A stretch of 57,963 bases of DNA. It comes from Oscillospiraceae bacterium (GTDB lineage Bacteria > Bacillota > Clostridia > Oscillospirales > Oscillospiraceae). Positions 14,345 through 23,809 of the stretch are shown one piece after another. The notes beneath the pieces were generated by a model. It did no database searches, was not told where the DNA came from, and was given only the letters and a program-made list of their open reading frames with translations. Numbering within the stretch: the first letter of the stretch is position 1; the number at the start of each line of letters is the position of its first letter. Location of the stretch: positions 1 to 57,963 of the forward strand of contig JAFQIL010000017.1 of the NCBI GenBank assembly GCA_017397565.1. Direction: 5' to 3'. A program made the position numbers and the translations under genes.

Positions 14345-16117
14345 TCATTTTTCTTCCGGGAATGCGTATTTTGCTTTATACTGGGCAAAGTGCTCGGAGA
14401 ATGCCGCACTCTCATGAAGCTCTCCCGCCTTCAGAGCATTCAGGTATTCGTGAGCCTCCAGCTTACCCTCGGATACCTGCAGCATTTCAATTGCAACATT
14501 GGAGCAGTGGTCTGCGGTACGCTCACAGGCAGTCAGCAGATCTTCCAGCACGAAGCCGTATTCTACCGTACACAGACCGTCTCTCAGACGGCGGACATGG
14601 CGGCTTTTGACCTCCCGAACGAGGCTATCCACCACCTGCTCCTGAGGTTCGATCTTGATAGCCTGCTCCAGATCAAAACTGCTGTAAGCAGCAACAGTAC
14701 GGTCTACGATATCCAACACAGCCTGCTCCAGAACAGCCAACTCGCCTTTCGCCTGTTTAGAAAACTCGATCTTCTTTTCTTCGATCTCCAGGGCCGCCTT
14801 GGCGATAGCCAGAGCATGGTCACCTATCCGTTCGATATCTGAAGTCGTGTACAGCAGGGTATTGAGGATCCGGTTGTCCCGGACGGAAAGCTTTCTGTCG
14901 GACAGTTTTACCAGGTACGTACCCAAGGCATCTTCGTAGTGATCGGTACGGTTCTCCAACTCTATGACCTGCTCCATGACAGCTGGGTCAAACTTCTTAG
15001 TCAGTCCAATGGCAAGACGCATGGCCTCTGCTGCATCCGCAGCCATCTGACCGGCGATCTCATGAGCGCGCTGCACAGCAACTGCAGGGGTAGCCAGCAG
15101 ACGCTCGTCCAGCAGCTCGGTTTTCTGCGGTGTCTGCTCCTTGGGAATAAACAGATATGCCAGTTTTACCAGCAGACCGTTCATAGGTATCAGCACGCAG
15201 GTTGCTGCCACATTGAAGAACGTATGGATCACGGCGATATCCCATGCTGCCGCAGTGTTATCCAGGAATCTCCAGTCAATGAACAAGCCCAAGCCATAGA
15301 ATGCCACCACAAAAATCGTCACACCAACCACATTGAACAGTAGGTGCACCAGTGCGGTACGGCGGGCATTCCGGTTAGCGCCGATGGCACCCATCATAGC
15401 AGTTACGCAAGTACCGATATTCTGGCCTAAGATAATAGGAATCGCGCTGCCGAAAGTAACAACACCCGTACCGCACAGGCCCTGCAGGATACCAATAGAT
15501 GCAGAAGAGGACTGGATTACTGCGGTCAGCACTGCGCCAAACAAAATACCAACGATGGGGTTGGAGAAGGAGATCATCAACTCAGCAAACCACGCTTCGC
15601 TTTTCAGGAAAGACATGGAACTGCTCATAAGATCCATACCGGTCATCAGAGCCATAAAGCCAAGGCAAATGGTACCGATTCCCTTCTTCTTTTCACTCTT
15701 GGTGAACATGAAAAGGACAATGCCAATGATTGCAATCAGCGGGGCAAGTGTGGACGGCTTAAAGATTTGGACCAGGAAGCTGTCACCCTCCAAACCGGAC
15801 AGGGACAGGATCCATGCCGTGACGGTGGTACCGATATTGGAACCCATGATAACACCCACGGCCTGCTTCAGGGTCATAATGCCGGAGTTAACGAAACCGA
15901 CCACCATGACTGTGGTTGCAGAGGAGGACTGGATCACCGCAGTGACACCCAAACCCAGCAGAAAGCCTTTGAACACATTGGAACTCATCTTTGCCAGGAT
16001 GGTTTGCAGTTTCCCACCGGCCTGACGTTCCAAAGACTTGCCCATAACATCCATGCCGAACAGGAACAGCGCAAGTCCGCCGAGCAGGGTGATGATTTTA
16101 AAAATGTAAGTCGTCAT
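14345..16117 (-). CDS. Na+/phosphate cotransporter with PhoU-like tail
   Basis: Sodium-dependent phosphate importer of the NptA/PNaS family (590 residues). The membrane half contains the two inverted QSSSAT / QSSSAS repeats that define the family (VIQSSSATTVM near residue 61 and VIQSSSASIGI near 200), with about eight hydrophobic segments. The cytoplasmic C-terminal part (about 340-575) is a pair of PhoU-like helical bundles, usual in the bacterial subfamily. AAAGGAG precedes the ATG. It lies directly downstream of the PhoPR genes, and its promoter region carries 11-base-spaced TTTACA-like repeats, so control by phosphate limitation is likely. Confidence 0.93.
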   Translation of the reverse strand: MTTYIFKIITLLGGLALFLFGMDVMGKSLERQAGGKLQTILAKMSSNVFKGFLLGLGVTAVIQSSSATTVMVVGFVNSGIMTLKQAVGVIMGSNIGTTVTAWILSLSGLEGDSFLVQIFKPSTLAPLIAIIGIVLFMFTKSEKKKGIGTICLGFMALMTGMDLMSSSMSFLKSEAWFAELMISFSNPIVGILFGAVLTAVIQSSSASIGILQGLCGTGVVTFGSAIPIILGQNIGTCVTAMMGAIGANRNARRTALVHLLFNVVGVTIFVVAFYGLGLFIDWRFLDNTAAAWDIAVIHTFFNVAATCVLIPMNGLLVKLAYLFIPKEQTPQKTELLDERLLATPAVAVQRAHEIAGQMAADAAEAMRLAIGLTKKFDPAVMEQVIELENRTDHYEDALGTYLVKLSDRKLSVRDNRILNTLLYTTSDIERIGDHALAIAKAALEIEEKKIEFSKQAKGELAVLEQAVLDIVDRTVAAYSSFDLEQAIKIEPQEQVVDSLVREVKSRHVRRLRDGLCTVEYGFVLEDLLTACERTADHCSNVAIEMLQVSEGKLEAHEYLNALKAGELHESAAFSEHFAQYKAKYAFPEEK

Positions 16118-16160
16118 GAAAACTCTCCTTTGAGATAGTATGCTCGTTTTGACAGTTTAC

Positions 16161-16226
16161 ATTATAGTTTTTGCCGTATGTAAATACCATAGAGGGTTTG
16201 CAAAACCTAAGTAAAATCTATGTAAA
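16161..16226 (-). promoter_or_regulatory. Symporter promoter with candidate PhoP box
   Basis: On the minus strand TATAAT (16161-16166) has no good -35. Upstream of it lie three hexamers at exact 11-base steps: TTTACA (16221-16226), TTTACT (16210-16215) and TTTGCA (16199-16204), with another TTTACA at 16179-16184. Direct repeats of TT(A/T)ACA at 11-base spacing are the recognised PhoP box in Bacillus, and a weak -35 fits an activated promoter. Confidence 0.5.
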
Positions 16227-16278
16227 GCGGCAAAAGAAAAGTCATTGCGAACCGGTGCGGATGCCAGCTCGCAATGAC
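16218..16278 (-). terminator. Terminator after phoR built from a GTCATTGCGA inverted repeat
   Basis: Perfect 10-bp arms (16241-16250 and 16269-16278) followed on the minus strand by a TTTTCTTTT tract. The arm sequence recurs in the longer repeat at 47213-47389. Confidence 0.65.
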
Positions 16279-16287
16279 AGTCATGTT

Positions 16288-17922
16288 TTAGAATTGAATG
16301 GTTATTGCCGTTCCCTTTCCGGGAGTGCTTTCCAAGGCGATTTCTGCATTGTGGTAAGAAACAGCGTGTTTGACGATGGAAAGGCCCAGGCCGGTACCAC
16401 CGGAGGCTTTGGAATGGCTCTTATCCACCCGGTAGAACCGTTCGAAGACTCTTTCCCGGTGTTCTGCCGGAATACCGATACCAGTATCCAAAACAGTCAG
16501 CCTGTTGTGCTCGATATGTATATCGACACTGCCGCCGGGAATGTTGTACTTAACGGCATTGTCAAAGAGGTTGTAAAGCATCTCATACAGAATCCTGCGC
16601 ACACCGGAAAGGCTGAAGCCTTCGCCGGAAACAGTTATGCTGACATTCTTTTCTGTCGCACTTGGCTTTAAGACTTTTTTTACTTCCTCTGCCAAAGCCA
16701 GCATATCCACAGTTTCCGTGGGCAGTTCCACACCTTCATCCAACTGGGAAAGACGGATAATATCTTCAATAAGATTCACGAGCCGGGATGCTTCCTTGCG
16801 GATATGCCCCACAAAACGAGAGGTATCCTCCGGTTTCACCATGCCGCTTTCCAGCAGTTCGGCGCTGCCGATAATGCCTTGCAAGGGAGTCTTCAATTCG
16901 TGGGACACATTGGCGGAGAACTCCCGGCGCATCTGCTCGGAATTGAGTCGGTCGGTGATATCAAAGGCCAACACCACTGCGCCAACTATATCTGCGCCGG
17001 ACTGAATACGGCTCAGGTCAAGCTGGTAATCCCGTCCGTTTCGGTTAATACGGGCAAAGCCGCGTCCTTTATCCAGAGCATCATTGACGGCAGCACGTAC
17101 CACGCTGGTACGGTCAACCGTCAGAAAGTTCTTGCCTGTGCAATCATCCGGCGCATTGAACAATCTCTTGGCCGTCGGATTGATGGACAGAATGTTCCCC
17201 TCGCTGCTGAGAAGCACCAGTCCCTCTTGCATACTTTCGGTAATCTGCCCGAATTCATCGGTCTTTCGGCGCAACTCCTCCACCTGAACGGCAATCTGGT
17301 TGCGCTGGCGATGGATGCGGTGCAGAAGCGGAGAAATCTCCTCATACACATCATTTTTCAGAGGTTGCTCCAAGTCCAGGGTATTCAGCGGCTCCACGAT
17401 CTTTCTCGCCATGCGCCGGGCCAAAAAGGCAGACAATCCCAGCGAAAGAATCACAATCAGGACAAGGGGCCACAGCATCCCCATCATCAGCGCCCAGGCG
17501 GATTTCTGACTGGTAGAGATACGCAGCACCGTTCCGTCCTGCAATTTTTGTGCCTCATAAAAAGTCTGCACGGTCAGCGTGGTAGATGTTCGCACCGCAC
17601 TGCCAAAACCGGTATGGAAAGCATCCCGGATCTCTTCGCGGTCCGCGTGGTTCTCCATGGCGGTCTGATCCACCTGGGTATCAAAGAGGACTGTACCGTC
17701 GGTATCGATCCAAGTGATACGAAACCGATCCGCTTCCACATTTTCCAGAAACGCATTGCCGTACTGCTCTGTTCCAGTTACGGCTAAACTCAGCTCATCC
17801 TTAAGCTGCTGCACCTGCACCTGAGAGAAATGGTTATACAAGATACCCATCACGATCCCAAGAGAGCACAGCAAAACCACCGCAGCAACGAAAACCGTTG
17901 AACGGAATATCCTACTTGTCAT
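16288..17922 (-). CDS. phoR: PhoR-like sensor histidine kinase
   Basis: Membrane sensor kinase of 544 residues. A first membrane segment (about 7-28), an extracytoplasmic sensing region, a second segment (about 150-172, ending in RRMARKIVEPL of a HAMP-like linker), and a PAS domain (about 220-310) precede the kinase core. The phosphoacceptor histidine is in NVSHELKTPLQG, and the ATP-binding N, G1 and G2 boxes appear as NLFDNAVKY, DTGIGIP and GGTGLGLSIVKHA. The ATG at 17922 has GGAGG seven bases upstream. It overlaps the regulator gene by 11 bases. Domain order and neighbours match PhoR, so it probably senses phosphate status or wall intermediates. Confidence 0.93.
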   Translation of the reverse strand: MTSRIFRSTVFVAAVVLLCSLGIVMGILYNHFSQVQVQQLKDELSLAVTGTEQYGNAFLENVEADRFRITWIDTDGTVLFDTQVDQTAMENHADREEIRDAFHTGFGSAVRTSTTLTVQTFYEAQKLQDGTVLRISTSQKSAWALMMGMLWPLVLIVILSLGLSAFLARRMARKIVEPLNTLDLEQPLKNDVYEEISPLLHRIHRQRNQIAVQVEELRRKTDEFGQITESMQEGLVLLSSEGNILSINPTAKRLFNAPDDCTGKNFLTVDRTSVVRAAVNDALDKGRGFARINRNGRDYQLDLSRIQSGADIVGAVVLAFDITDRLNSEQMRREFSANVSHELKTPLQGIIGSAELLESGMVKPEDTSRFVGHIRKEASRLVNLIEDIIRLSQLDEGVELPTETVDMLALAEEVKKVLKPSATEKNVSITVSGEGFSLSGVRRILYEMLYNLFDNAVKYNIPGGSVDIHIEHNRLTVLDTGIGIPAEHRERVFERFYRVDKSHSKASGGTGLGLSIVKHAVSYHNAEIALESTPGKGTAITIQF

Positions 17923-18592
17923 GTTTGACCTCCAAACGATATCCCACATTGCGGACAGTTTCGATCATTGCGCCGTAACTGCCCAGCTTCTGCCGCAGAG
18001 TGCGAATGTGCATATCCACCGTCCGGGTTTCCCCTACGAATTCTGCATTCCACACACTGGAAAGCAGCTGTTCTCTTGTAAAAGCAATCCCCGGCTGAGA
18101 AAGGAACAGATGTAGCAGTTCATATTCCTTGTAAGTCAGGACGATCCGTTCTCCATCCACAGTAACGGTATGTTCATCGGGGTTCAGCACAAGTCCGTCC
18201 AGTTTCAGCAAGTTGGAGGGTGATTTCGGCTTACACCGTCGAAGAACAGCCTTCACCCGGCTGACCATTTCCATAACGCCAAAGGGCTTGACCAAATAAT
18301 CGTCAGCCCCCAGGTCCAAGCTTTGGATCTTATCAAACTCCGTACCTTTGGCTGTGGCCATGATCACAGGAATATCCCGAAAATTTTCTGCCTGCTTCAT
18401 CATCTTCAGTAGCGTTACGCCGTCCTTGCCGGGAAGCATCACATCCAGCACAATGAGTTCCGGCTTCTCGGATTGCAGTGCATTCCAAAAACTGTCGCCA
18501 TCTTCAAAGCCTTTTGCTTCAAATCCGGTAGAAGTGAGGGCATATACTTCAATGTCACGGATGCTGGAATCGTCTTCTACACACCAAATCAT
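17912..18592 (-). CDS. phoP: PhoP/PhoB-like response regulator
   Basis: OmpR-family regulator of 226 residues: a receiver domain with the phosphorylated aspartate in LIVLDVMLPG (D51 region) and the conserved Lys in DDYLVKPFG, then a winged-helix DNA-binding domain (about 125-222, with the YKEYELLHLFL and RTVDMHIRTLRQKLG signatures). It would bind TTTACA-like repeats such as those upstream of the adjacent symporter. GAGGAGG precedes the ATG, and a 17-base-spaced promoter lies upstream. Cotranscribed with the kinase. Confidence 0.94.
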   Translation of the reverse strand: MIWCVEDDSSIRDIEVYALTSTGFEAKGFEDGDSFWNALQSEKPELIVLDVMLPGKDGVTLLKMMKQAENFRDIPVIMATAKGTEFDKIQSLDLGADDYLVKPFGVMEMVSRVKAVLRRCKPKSPSNLLKLDGLVLNPDEHTVTVDGERIVLTYKEYELLHLFLSQPGIAFTREQLLSSVWNAEFVGETRTVDMHIRTLRQKLGSYGAMIETVRNVGYRLEVKHDK

Positions 18593-20710: not shown

Positions 20711-20739
20711 TTCCTATCCCCTGTTTTTTGTGATATAAT
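20711..20739 (+). promoter_or_regulatory. Promoter for the GTPase-NYN fusion gene
   Basis: Perfect TATAAT (20734-20739) with a TG extension upstream and only a weak -35 (TTCCTA, 20711-20716). The predicted transcript start, near 20746, leaves a leader of only about 15 bases before the first possible start codon. Confidence 0.55.
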
Positions 20740-20760
20740 GCCTGTAATTGCGTAAGAAAG

Positions 20761-23307
20761 TTGGTGTCTGCCTTGGGTGAGCAACCAAAAAAGTCTTATA
20801 TTTGCGTCGGGCTGCTGGCCCATGTTGACGCGGGAAAAACGACGCTGTCCGAAGCACTGCTCTATTGCAGCGGCAGCCGCCGGACCTTGGGGCGGGTAGA
20901 TCATGGAGATGCCTATTTGGATACCCACGCATTGGAGCGGCAGCGGGGCATTACCATCTTCTCCAAGCAGGCCCTTTTGTCCACCGAGAATTTGGACATC
21001 ACCCTGCTGGACACCCCGGGGCATGTGGATTTTTCCGCAGAAGCCGAACGGATCATGCCTGTTTTGGACTGTGCCATTTTGGTCATCAGCGGCACGGACG
21101 GTGTCCAGGCCCACACACTGACGCTGTGGCAGCTTTTGCAGCGGTATGAGATCCCCGTTTTTTTATTTATCAACAAAATGGACCTGCCGGGTGCTGATCG
21201 GGACCAGATTTTGCGGCAGCTGCAGTCGCAATTAAGCACCGGCTGCATCGATTTTGGGCAGGAATTGTCCCAAATTGAAGAAAATTGCGCTATGTGCGAC
21301 GAAGCGCTTTTGGAAAACTACTTAGAAACCGGTACTGTTACTACCGGCAACATCCGGGGTTTGATTCAGCAGCGCAAAGTATTCCCCTGCTGCTTTGGCT
21401 CTGCCCTGCAGTTGACCGGAGTAGAAGATTTTTTGGCAACACTAAACCAGTATGCCCCCTACCCCCAGGTTTCCCCCAGGTTCGGGGCCCGGGTTTACAA
21501 AATCTCCCGGGATCCCCAGGGTAATCGGCTCACCTGGCTGAAGGTCACAGGGGGCAGTCTGGAGGTCCGGTCTTTGCTGTGTTATGTAAACCAAAAGGGT
21601 GATGCTTTGGAAGAAAAACCTCTGCAGCTGCGGCGGTACTCCGGAGAGAAATTCACCCCGGTACAAACCGCGCTGCCCGGTCAGACTGTAGCTGTTACCG
21701 GTCTGACCGCCACCTATGCCGGGCAAGGTCTTGGGGTCGCCCTGGGGGCTGCTGCGCCGGTTTTAGAACCCGTAATGACCTACCGGGTGAGTCTTCCCCA
21801 GGGGAAAGACCCCCTCACCGTACTGCCCAAGCTGCGACTGCTGGAAGAGGAAGATCCTCAGCTGCACATTTTATGGGAAGGCGGTCAGATCCATGTACAG
21901 ATCATGGGCAAGGTACAGCTGGAGGTGTTCCAAAGCCTTGTCAAAGAAAGGTTTGATTTAGAGATCACCTTATTAGATCAGCGGATCTTCTACAAGGAGA
22001 CCATATCCGATACTGTGGAGGGTGTTGGGCATTTTGAGCCACTGCGCCACTATGCGGAGGTCCATGTGCTTCTGGAGCCTCTGCCCCAGGGCAGAGGTTT
22101 GGTATTTGATACGGTATGTCCTACGGATGTACTGGACCTTGTGTATCAAAAGCTGATCCTCTCTCACATGTCGGAAAAGGTCCACCGGGGCGTTCTGACC
22201 GGTGCGCCCATTACCGATATGAAGATCACGCTTTTGGTGGGTAAGGCTCACTTAAAGCACACCGAGGGCGGCGATATGCGGCAGGCTACCTACCGGGCGA
22301 TCCGGCAGGGGCTGATGCAGGCAAAATCCGTTCTGTTAGAGCCCTGGTATCGGTTTATCCTCACCGTGCCTACAGAAAATGTGGGTCGCGCCATTACGGA
22401 TATTCGCGGTATGGGAGGAGATTTTGAGTCTCCGGAGCCTACAGGCGGTTTTTCCGTACTGAAAGGCACTGTTCCGGCATCGGAGCTGGGAGATTATGCC
22501 CAACAGGTGGCGGCCTACACCCAGGGACGGGGACGGTTACAGATCGCCATGGACGGCTACGCCCCCTGCCACAACACGGAAGCGGTACTGGAAGATATCG
22601 GATATGACCCGGAAGCAGACCTGGAAAATACACCGGATTCGGTGTTTTGCGCCCACGGCGCCGGCTTCCATGTGAAGTGGGATCAGGTAAAAGAATATAT
22701 GCACCTGGAAAGCGGTCTTCCTGCCAAGCCAAAGCCTCAGCTGATCACCCGGAATCTGCAGCTGGAGGACAAGGAGCTGGAAGCCATTATGCTCCGGGAA
22801 TTTGGCCCTCAGAAGACCCGACTTTACCACGCCCCGGAAAATCGCCCGGCGGCGGAAACCCTCACCATACGCCCACCCCGGCAGCAATATCTTATCGTAG
22901 ACGGCTACAACATCATTTTTGCCTGGGATGAGCTGGCCAAGATCGCCAAAGAGGACCTGGATGCCGCCCGGCGGTTACTGTGTGACCGGCTTAGCAGCTA
23001 CGCAGGCTTCAAAAAATGCAGGGTGGTTTTGGTGTTTGACGGCTACAAGGTCAAAGGAAATCCCGGAGAAAAAGTGCAGTTTCACAACATTCAGGTGGTT
23101 TACACCAAGGAAAATGAGACCGGCGACGCCTACATTGAGGCTCTGGTTCATGAGATTGGCAGTAACTACAACATTCGGGTGGCCACCTCTGACGGCTTGG
23201 TACAGCTGAGCTCTTTGCGCTCCGGTGTGCTGCGGATGTCTGCCCGGGAATTACAGCAGGAGCTACAGGATGCTCAAAAAGAAATGCAAGAACATTTTCA
23301 AAAATAA
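20761..23307 (+). CDS. TetM/EF-G-like translational GTPase fused to a YacP/Rae1-like NYN nuclease domain
   Basis: An 848-residue two-part protein. Residues 12 to about 640 are a ribosomal-protection-type GTPase: P-loop AHVDAGKT (20-27), RGITI (62-66), DTPGH (84-88), NKMD (139-142), then EF-G-like domains II-V, ending in the subfamily motif HGAGFHVKW. Residues 708-845 are an NYN/PIN domain with its acidic set intact: D714 (IVDGYN), D760 (VFDGYK), E786 and D789 (TKENETGDAYIE), D811 (ATSDG). In Bacillus the stand-alone homologue Rae1 cuts mRNA in the ribosomal A site, so a fused factor could bind stalled or drug-bound ribosomes and cleave. That is inference; resistance to tetracycline is not shown. 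Start codons are TTG 20761 or GTG 20764 with only a weak AAGAAAG ahead. The last 38 bases overlap the next gene. Confidence 0.92.
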   Translation: MVSALGEQPKKSYICVGLLAHVDAGKTTLSEALLYCSGSRRTLGRVDHGDAYLDTHALERQRGITIFSKQALLSTENLDITLLDTPGHVDFSAEAERIMPVLDCAILVISGTDGVQAHTLTLWQLLQRYEIPVFLFINKMDLPGADRDQILRQLQSQLSTGCIDFGQELSQIEENCAMCDEALLENYLETGTVTTGNIRGLIQQRKVFPCCFGSALQLTGVEDFLATLNQYAPYPQVSPRFGARVYKISRDPQGNRLTWLKVTGGSLEVRSLLCYVNQKGDALEEKPLQLRRYSGEKFTPVQTALPGQTVAVTGLTATYAGQGLGVALGAAAPVLEPVMTYRVSLPQGKDPLTVLPKLRLLEEEDPQLHILWEGGQIHVQIMGKVQLEVFQSLVKERFDLEITLLDQRIFYKETISDTVEGVGHFEPLRHYAEVHVLLEPLPQGRGLVFDTVCPTDVLDLVYQKLILSHMSEKVHRGVLTGAPITDMKITLLVGKAHLKHTEGGDMRQATYRAIRQGLMQAKSVLLEPWYRFILTVPTENVGRAITDIRGMGGDFESPEPTGGFSVLKGTVPASELGDYAQQVAAYTQGRGRLQIAMDGYAPCHNTEAVLEDIGYDPEADLENTPDSVFCAHGAGFHVKWDQVKEYMHLESGLPAKPKPQLITRNLQLEDKELEAIMLREFGPQKTRLYHAPENRPAAETLTIRPPRQQYLIVDGYNIIFAWDELAKIAKEDLDAARRLLCDRLSSYAGFKKCRVVLVFDGYKVKGNPGEKVQFHNIQVVYTKENETGDAYIEALVHEIGSNYNIRVATSDGLVQLSSLRSGVLRMSARELQQELQDAQKEMQEHFQK

Positions 23308-23563
23308 CTTGGATTTGGATCACTATCTGCACAGCGCATTGACCATTGTTGTTGATTTGGAATTTGTGCGTATGATCATTGACACCACCCCCGCCAACAT
23401 TTTGGAGGTTTTGACGGTGGCTATCACCCGTCACGTCATTCTCTCCCACGATGATCCCTGGAGCAATATCGCCTGCACCGCCTGTGTGGCCGGTCTGTTT
23501 GCCATCCGCCGTTTCCTGGTTCGCCGGAACGAGCTGAAGGAAGAAATGGTGGAAATCGAGTAA
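23270..23563 (+). CDS. Small membrane protein, PsiE-like
   Basis: A 97-residue protein with about two to three hydrophobic segments and charged ends; the central ILEVLTVAITRHVIL and FAIRRFLVRR stretches resemble the PsiE (phosphate-starvation-inducible) family, a weak assignment. CAGGAG within the upstream coding region precedes the ATG at 23270 by seven bases, so translation is coupled to the GTPase-NYN fusion through a 38-base overlap. A strong terminator follows. Confidence 0.78.
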   Translation: MLKKKCKNIFKNNLDLDHYLHSALTIVVDLEFVRMIIDTTPANILEVLTVAITRHVILSHDDPWSNIACTACVAGLFAIRRFLVRRNELKEEMVEIE

Positions 23564-23648: not shown

Positions 23649-23787
23649 GCAGGCTGCGCCTGCTAATGAATAATGAATAATGAATAATGAAGGAGTCGCC
23701 TTCGGCGACATATTTAAAATCATTTCCGAAGGAAATACCGCAATTATTCATTATTCATTATCAATTATTCATTCGTGCGTCAGCACG
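23649..23787. repeat. Palindromic AATGAATAAT repeat element
   Basis: An intergenic element of about 139 bases. Three tandem AATGAATAAT-like units on the left (from 23664) are mirrored by ATTCATTATTCATT units on the right (to 23773). Between them are two perfect small hairpins, GTCGCCTTCGGCGAC at 23695-23709 and ATTTCCGAAGGAAAT at 23722-23736. GC-rich mini-hairpins bound the whole (23649-23663 and 23774-23787). It has no coding capacity and looks like a miniature mobile or REP-like element. It fills most of the gap between the convergent fusion operon and thrB. Confidence 0.7.
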
Positions 23788-23809
23788 ATAAACGGGAATT
23801 GGCATACAA

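Follow-up and report, generated by a model that had tools for sequence, protein, structure and literature searches.

The fused gene and its domains

The window analysed here, the whole stretch of 57,963 nucleotides of contig JAFQIL010000017.1 (assembly GCA_017397565.1, an Oscillospiraceae bacterium), carries on its plus strand a gene in which a translational GTPase related to EF-G and to the tetracycline-protection (Tet) proteins is joined to an NYN nuclease domain of the YacP/Rae1 type. The comparisons reported below suggest that its product is probably a GTPase-tethered form of Rae1/YacP, encoded by a gene that has taken over from stand-alone yacP in many Clostridia. The open frame is single and uninterrupted, beginning with TTG at 20761 and running over 848 codons to the stop at 23307, and the whole of it had been taken as the gene in an earlier note on this DNA. 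The frame stands, but the gene start is likely located further downstream: when the upstream regions of 13 loci were aligned, the start codons fell on one position, occupied by ATG in 11 loci and by TTG in locus L015 and in the window (20773), so that TTG 20773 is the likely start and the gene more likely extends from 20773 to 23307 (844 residues) than from 20761. Residue numbers given here follow the 848-codon frame from TTG 20761. For comparison the best 80 of 586 homologous loci from public genomes were used, and the window protein was aligned with 78 others to yield a set of 79 proteins. Both domains lie in one unbroken frame in 78 of the 80 loci, the exceptions being L037, which is cut by a contig edge, and L086, whose frame is broken; a frameshift or assembly artefact joining two genes, considered in the earlier note, is ruled out by this finding. 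The closest relative among these 80 loci comes from an Oscillospiraceae metagenome-assembled genome of goat caecum (90% identity), and three Candidatus Faecousia records follow at 69–73%. The ratio of nonsynonymous to synonymous changes (dN/dS), derived by simple counting, was 0.069 for the NYN domain and 0.025–0.126 for the five GTPase domains as compared to the nearest relative, L010, and reached up to 0.41 for the linker in more distant pairs, where synonymous changes approach or exceed saturation. Purifying selection is hence indicated for the GTPase and NYN parts alike.

Pfam matches above cut-off were obtained for GTP_EFTU (residues 12–233), EFG_IV (409–522), EFG_C (524–606) and NYN_YacP (711–847), the last of these (PF05991) scoring 152.9 bits against a curated cut-off of 24.6. 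The G domain (20794–21459) holds the P-loop AHVDAGKT, DTPGH and NKMD, which are intact in the 79 proteins apart from single-position variants, and is followed by EF-G domains II and III (242–404; 21484–21972), both detected below the Pfam cut-off (24.7 and 21.8 bits versus 27). Conservation is highest in domain IV (21985–22326), with a mean majority identity of 0.838 versus 0.571–0.729 in the other parts of the protein; this domain has two tip loops, namely loop 1, GHFEPLRHYAEVH (423–435; 22027–22065), and loop 3, HLKHTEGGDMRQA (497–509; 22249–22287), which occupies the position of the TetM/TetO tip. Domain V (22330–22578) continues into a C-terminal extension (607–650; 22579–22710) that is common to unfused sister GTPases ending about here, and further into a linker (651–709; 22711–22887) of varying length and sequence, within which a short conserved motif, DKELEAIMLREFGP (670–683; 22768–22809), was identified. 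The NYN domain (711–848; 22891–23304), recognized both by Pfam and by a structure-profile match, completes the protein. With GTP_EFTU, domains IV and V, intact G motifs and the DTPGH histidine all present, the GTPase part belongs to the EF-G/Tet-type superfamily, and the description of a complete TetM/EF-G-like factor running without a break into an NYN domain was found to be accurate.

The five acidic NYN residues named in the earlier note (D714, D760, E786, D789 and D811) were all located as claimed and proved to be conserved among the homologues: the four aspartates are present in 79 of 79 fused proteins, and position 786 holds E in 74 of them, with Q in the other five. This part of the protein matches the solved Bacillus subtilis YacP structure 5mq9 (E 1.2e-23), the five acidic positions being common to 5mq8 and 5mq9. 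Like the fused NYN domain, Rae1/YacP of B. subtilis thus possesses the same five acidic positions, and its family alternates with the fusion among genomes; it differs in being a stand-alone enzyme, whereas here the NYN domain follows a GTPase and the C-terminal tail of the window protein is shorter than that of stand-alone relatives. This tail, counted after the last acidic residue, comprises 37 residues in the window protein, 35–41 in 41 of the 79 fused proteins (the window's included) and 48–79 in the other 38, as compared to 61–68 in 26 of 27 stand-alone YacP rows, which were trimmed at 175 residues so that the upper end may be short; tail length is not known to be a defining feature of the YacP/Rae1 NYN family. 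The linker, when measured together with the extension, is the least conserved part of the fused proteins, and 73–125 residues separate the extension motif from the NYN domain (77 measured of 88 proteins). A loose form of the linker motif, approximately (D/E)KELxAIFERTYGPIKR, fits 76 of 88 fused proteins, with a diverged clade showing a related stretch, and could serve as a docking site.

The relation of the GTPase part to the Tet and EF-G families was approached with family models, with solved structures and by inspection of the domain IV tip. The best NCBIfam model, tet_protect, yielded 375.8 bits, less than half of its cut-off of 775, and values of 393–450 bits were obtained for two further fused proteins and four unfused sisters; the EF-G equivalog TIGR00484 gave 264.6 bits versus a cut-off of 659.4, and among the 25 NCBIfam models listed only the general small-GTP-binding domain passed its cut-off. 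In a profile search against solved structures TetO came out on top with 362.3 bits, EF-G being level with 361.5 bits. The tip loops of the fused proteins follow the consensus GH(F/Y)EPLRHYAEVH and KHTEGGD, of which KHTEGGD is invariant across the 79 proteins and has E replaced by Q in two of nine further fused proteins. TetM and TetO share with the fused protein the domain order, the length of loop 3 and the DFR following it, but read PNPFWAS and YSPVSTP where the fused GTPase has EPLRHYAEVH and LKHTEGG, the latter pairing with SPVSTPA when aligned position by position, and the fused protein lies far below their family cut-offs. EF-G has in common with it the domain order, the P-loop, DTPGH and NKMD, and a profile score about that of TetO, but the fused protein stays below the equivalog cut-off and is shorter by about 76 residues over the aligned part (its residue 601 pairs with residue 677 of EF-G). 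Among nine tetracycline-protection model matches in the window genome, which is 60.55% complete, no frame lies above cut-off. Apparently, the GTPase is unlike a classical tetracycline-protection protein and represents an EF-G/Tet-related, non-resistance subfamily with a domain IV tip of its own, in line with the earlier note insofar as the protein had been called distinct from classical resistance proteins.

Origin of the fusion and replacement of yacP

Unfused sisters of the GTPase, about 650 residues long (17 aligned), keep the tip patterns EPLxHYAEV and KHTxGGDF, and their C-terminal extension stops about where the fusion linker starts. In a GTPase tree built by a quick method, all 32 fused rows fall into a single clade (support 100), which requires one label change and stands beside 21 unfused rows. 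A single fusion origin fits this tree, and the NYN domain was probably gained once, at the C-terminus and via a variable linker. The NYN tree likewise groups the fused rows (support 98); two stand-alone rows belong to the same group, of which G265 is placed among Lachnospiraceae-type rows and G281 at the unresolved base. The unfused GTPase of G265 is located on another contig, and no trace of a GTPase was found beside its NYN gene (L130) within 6.5 kb; this NYN domain may be a nuclease set free again from the fusion. Among 80 selected genomes a sister GTPase was found in 15 of 51 with stand-alone YacP, one of these (G202) being assigned by a partial match and motifs, and in two of 20 without YacP. 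A wider sample of 398 genomes from the phylum contained 35 with a match to the GTPase profile (E of 1e-150 or lower); the matching frames are of fusion length (at least 857 residues) in 28 of these and measure 651–674 residues in seven.

The window genome holds one NYN_YacP match, the fused protein. When the genome and its relatives were considered (60 genomes), an NYN match was found in 33, including 28 of 36 of the same genus, and 31 of the 33 matches reside in frames of at least 843 residues, G014 and G023 having theirs in shorter frames. Within the class, 250 of 393 sampled genomes (the window's own taken as included) possess an NYN_YacP match: 136 carry the fusion, 113 the stand-alone form only and one a fragment, the stand-alone total being 114. 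The fusion was called by frame length in most of the 393 genomes, with follow-up of nine unclear cases, and the GTPase itself was seen in the 78-locus set, in nine fusion genomes of the 80-genome sample and in some others; in seven of the 136 fusion genomes the frames are broken or cut by contig ends. Only G340 (loci L137 and L108) holds both forms in full, namely the fusion and an intact stand-alone yacP, where about 39 such genomes would be expected if the two forms were independent and kinship is ignored. The earlier note had proposed a survey of whether the fusion occurs in genomes that lack stand-alone yacP, and the survey shows that it does so almost throughout.

Both forms occur within five family groups of the class, and on a tree of sigH, a neighbour of yacP, 11 changes of form are needed, of which starred branches force four. 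Fused and stand-alone forms stand side by side in the sister pairs G076/G262 (support 97), G121/G301 (99), G081/G110 (89) and G077/G153 (86). The sigH gene also marks the old location of yacP: it lies within the fetched stretch in 25 of 27 stand-alone loci, and yacP is placed between rlmB and sigH in L137, L131 and L092, L134 showing sigH only (the names rlmB, sigH and mrnC for genes near this slot are those we presume for them). From 38 fusion genomes chosen, 32 had a sigH match, 30 loci were examined and rlmB adjoins sigH in 17. Within these 17, an intact yacP was found in one (G340) and relics in three, comprising interrupted pieces in G426 and G081 and a weak 35-residue piece in G134 (E 5e-4), and no yacP was seen in the rlmB–sigH slot of the remaining 13. 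Weak second NYN matches in G177, G230 and G264 (21–22 bits) are below cut-off and were considered as decaying yacP; that of G177 was taken as spurious, as its frame resembles, on inspection by eye, an Lrp-type regulator. On these genome comparisons, the fused gene stands in for stand-alone yacP, roughly one-for-one, in many Clostridia. The simplest reading would be that it entered yacP-bearing genomes and that yacP then decayed because the fused NYN domain does the same job.

Upstream region, neighbouring genes and mobility

Upstream of the gene, the 13-locus alignment revealed a conserved -10-like box, TATAAT, at 20734–20739 on the plus strand. In some fused loci (L011, L012, L014–L017, L025 and L059) the region corresponding to window positions 20720–20773 has this box in the loop of an inverted repeat, the 3' arm of which lies over the Shine-Dalgarno site; the consensus example reads CCCCCTTTCATGG ... 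CCATGAAAGGGGG, and the arms vary between loci yet still pair, as in L025 and L059. A repeat scoring above all 20 shuffles and having TATAAT in its loop was found in 16 of 75 fused loci versus none of 75 control genes and none of 17 unfused sisters, whereby plain shuffles were used and the control gene starts were guessed. The inverted repeat alone is not special, as it exceeds the shuffles in 24 of 75 fused loci but also in 15 of 75 control genes, and in L067, L068 and L072 a comparable repeat lacks an exact TATAAT. The window's own inverted repeat does not exceed its shuffles. Where present, the promoter-containing hairpin may block translation of read-through transcripts. No known RNA element was found near the gene at the gathering threshold.

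Downstream, a gene for a PsiE-like small protein (23270–23563; Pfam 20.6 bits, below the cut-off of 23.9) probably overlaps the end of the fused gene; as a conserved operon partner it was rejected, since only 19 of the 74 loci with 600 or more bases of downstream sequence contain it. Between this gene and the next, an AT-rich repeated stretch, attattcattattcatt, extends over 23660–23790. On the minus strand upstream (14345–18592), genes for a Na/Pi cotransporter with a PhoU domain, a histidine kinase and a response regulator were noticed, which together with the PsiE-like gene hint at a phosphate-related neighbourhood.

In the collections searched, there is little sign of a recently mobile gene: among plasmid records 48 match (E up to 1e-60), two of them over at least 80% of the query, among phage records 44 match (E up to 1e-20), again two of them to that extent, and a viral contig scan gave two loci matching residues 14–650 only. 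Ligilactobacillus accounts for 33 of the 48 plasmid records, and in Ligilactobacillus salivarius UCC118 a relative matching residues 13–650 (L182), annotated as a TetM/TetW/TetO/TetS resistance protein, resides on the megaplasmid pMP118 near rpsN. Two unannotated Bacteriophage sp. scaffolds (L184 and H32; MT835563 and MT835514) encode relatives covering 99% of the query and may be bacterial or prophage sequence.

Proposed action on the ribosome and alternative explanations

A GTPase-NYN architecture has been reported in ten clostridial species, where RNase (ribonuclease)-based resistance was suggested (Atkinson 2015, PMC4342817), and these Tet-NYN proteins of Clostridiales likewise have a YacP-like NYN RNase domain joined to a GTPase of the Tet/EF-G type. 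There they are filed as Tet, whereas the tips and scores found here argue against classical ribosomal protection and the protein is seen to substitute for yacP. No other description of the fusion was found in a literature search, most subscription journals being outside its reach. The architecture is already known, and what is added here is the apparently non-classical GTPase with its own tip, the probable single origin of the fusion and the replacement of yacP.

We consider it reasonably probable that the protein is a GTPase-tethered Rae1/YacP which was fused once, spread, displaced yacP and carries the Rae1 function of cleaving messenger RNA (mRNA) on the ribosome. This is based on the domains, the kept catalytic residues, the single fused clade and the replacement of yacP together with its relics; having displaced stand-alone yacP, the fused gene would therefore carry its function. 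Factors with a domain IV and the DTPGH histidine, such as EF-G and TetM, bind to the A-site region and leave on GTP hydrolysis. In the same manner the GTPase would bind to the factor site with its domain IV in the A site, hydrolyse GTP and leave, upon which the tethered NYN domain would enter the freed A site and cut the mRNA; the stretch of 73–125 residues could allow the nuclease to enter after the GTPase has moved. As GTPase and NYN domain could hardly both fill the A site, such action would have to be sequential or require two molecules. Rae1 has been described as a ribosomal A-site endonuclease acting on mRNA, which may enter more readily on stalled ribosomes (PMC6613710). The shortened NYN tail might suggest that one of its tasks has passed to the GTPase, against which stand the 38 of 79 fused proteins that keep the longer form.

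Several points weigh against assigning the Rae1 function to the fusion. The tail is shortened in 41 of the 79 fused proteins, the window's among them, and a loss-of-function exchange of Rae1, R166P (PMC6613710), lies by its number near Rae1's end. Only 15 of the 51 stand-alone-YacP genomes also hold an unfused sister GTPase, from which it follows that GTPase and YacP functions are not obligately coupled, and the stand-alone NYN of G265 falls among the fused ones, so that the NYN domain may work without a GTPase. Kinship is left uncorrected in the co-occurrence test, many branches of the sigH tree were flagged as long by the program, and the literature search found no experiment on a fused protein.

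Among the alternatives, a factor for ribosome rescue or the clearing of stalls, with a GTPase that detects an empty or blocked A site and a nuclease that degrades the mRNA, would be more than a tethered Rae1, although the two readings overlap; it is possible, albeit somewhat unlikely: the high conservation of domain IV, its conserved and His/Arg/Lys-rich tip, the conserved linker motif and the promoter arrangement in part of the fused loci, which suggests tight control, all speak for it, while unfused sister GTPases are also found in genomes without YacP (two of 20) and a plain replacement of yacP requires no new task. More specific, and put forward as a tentative proposal only, is a GTP-driven factor that would unite a GTPase step and mRNA cutting on one bacterial chain: its new domain IV tip would empty or inspect the A site and pass it to its own nuclease, cleavage thereby being conditional on GTP hydrolysis and, in part of the range, guarded against read-through expression by the promoter inside the hairpin. 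A passive joining of two independent activities on one chain, with no mechanistic link, is unlikely; the poorly conserved linker and the position of the G265 NYN would suit it, but the single fused clade, the one frame kept in 78 of 80 loci, the substitution of the fusion for yacP in several lineages and the conserved motif inside the linker speak against it.

It is quite improbable that the NYN domain cuts ribosomal RNA (rRNA) or transfer RNA instead, for example in ribosome maturation or turnover, as B. subtilis Rae1 is described as an A-site mRNA endonuclease (PMC6613710), although the old yacP adjoins the putative rlmB and mrnC, presumably rRNA-modifying and rRNA-processing genes. That the protein protects ribosomes from tetracycline, with its added RNase contributing to resistance as suggested by Atkinson (2015), is very unlikely. 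That PMC4342817 classes such proteins as Tet, that tet_protect is the best NCBIfam model and TetO, level with EF-G, the top structure match, and that NCBI records name some relatives TetM/TetW/TetO/TetS resistance proteins would all agree with it, but the scores remain far below cut-off in the fused proteins and sisters alike, the TetM/TetO tip is replaced and the gene is exchanged one-for-one with yacP. The drug-release or antibiotic-response role proposed in the earlier note is not supported for the same reasons, the distribution being that of an interchangeable yacP.

With the tethered Rae1 as the preferred explanation, the fusion would represent a natural form of Rae1 tied to an A-site-type GTPase and widespread in Clostridia in place of the plain enzyme. 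To our knowledge, the route by which Rae1 reaches the A site is not settled, and swapping the fused and plain forms makes this question directly testable. Furthermore, resistance surveys of gut bacteria could be inflated, because relatives carry TetM/TetW/TetO/TetS labels that the features tested here do not fit.
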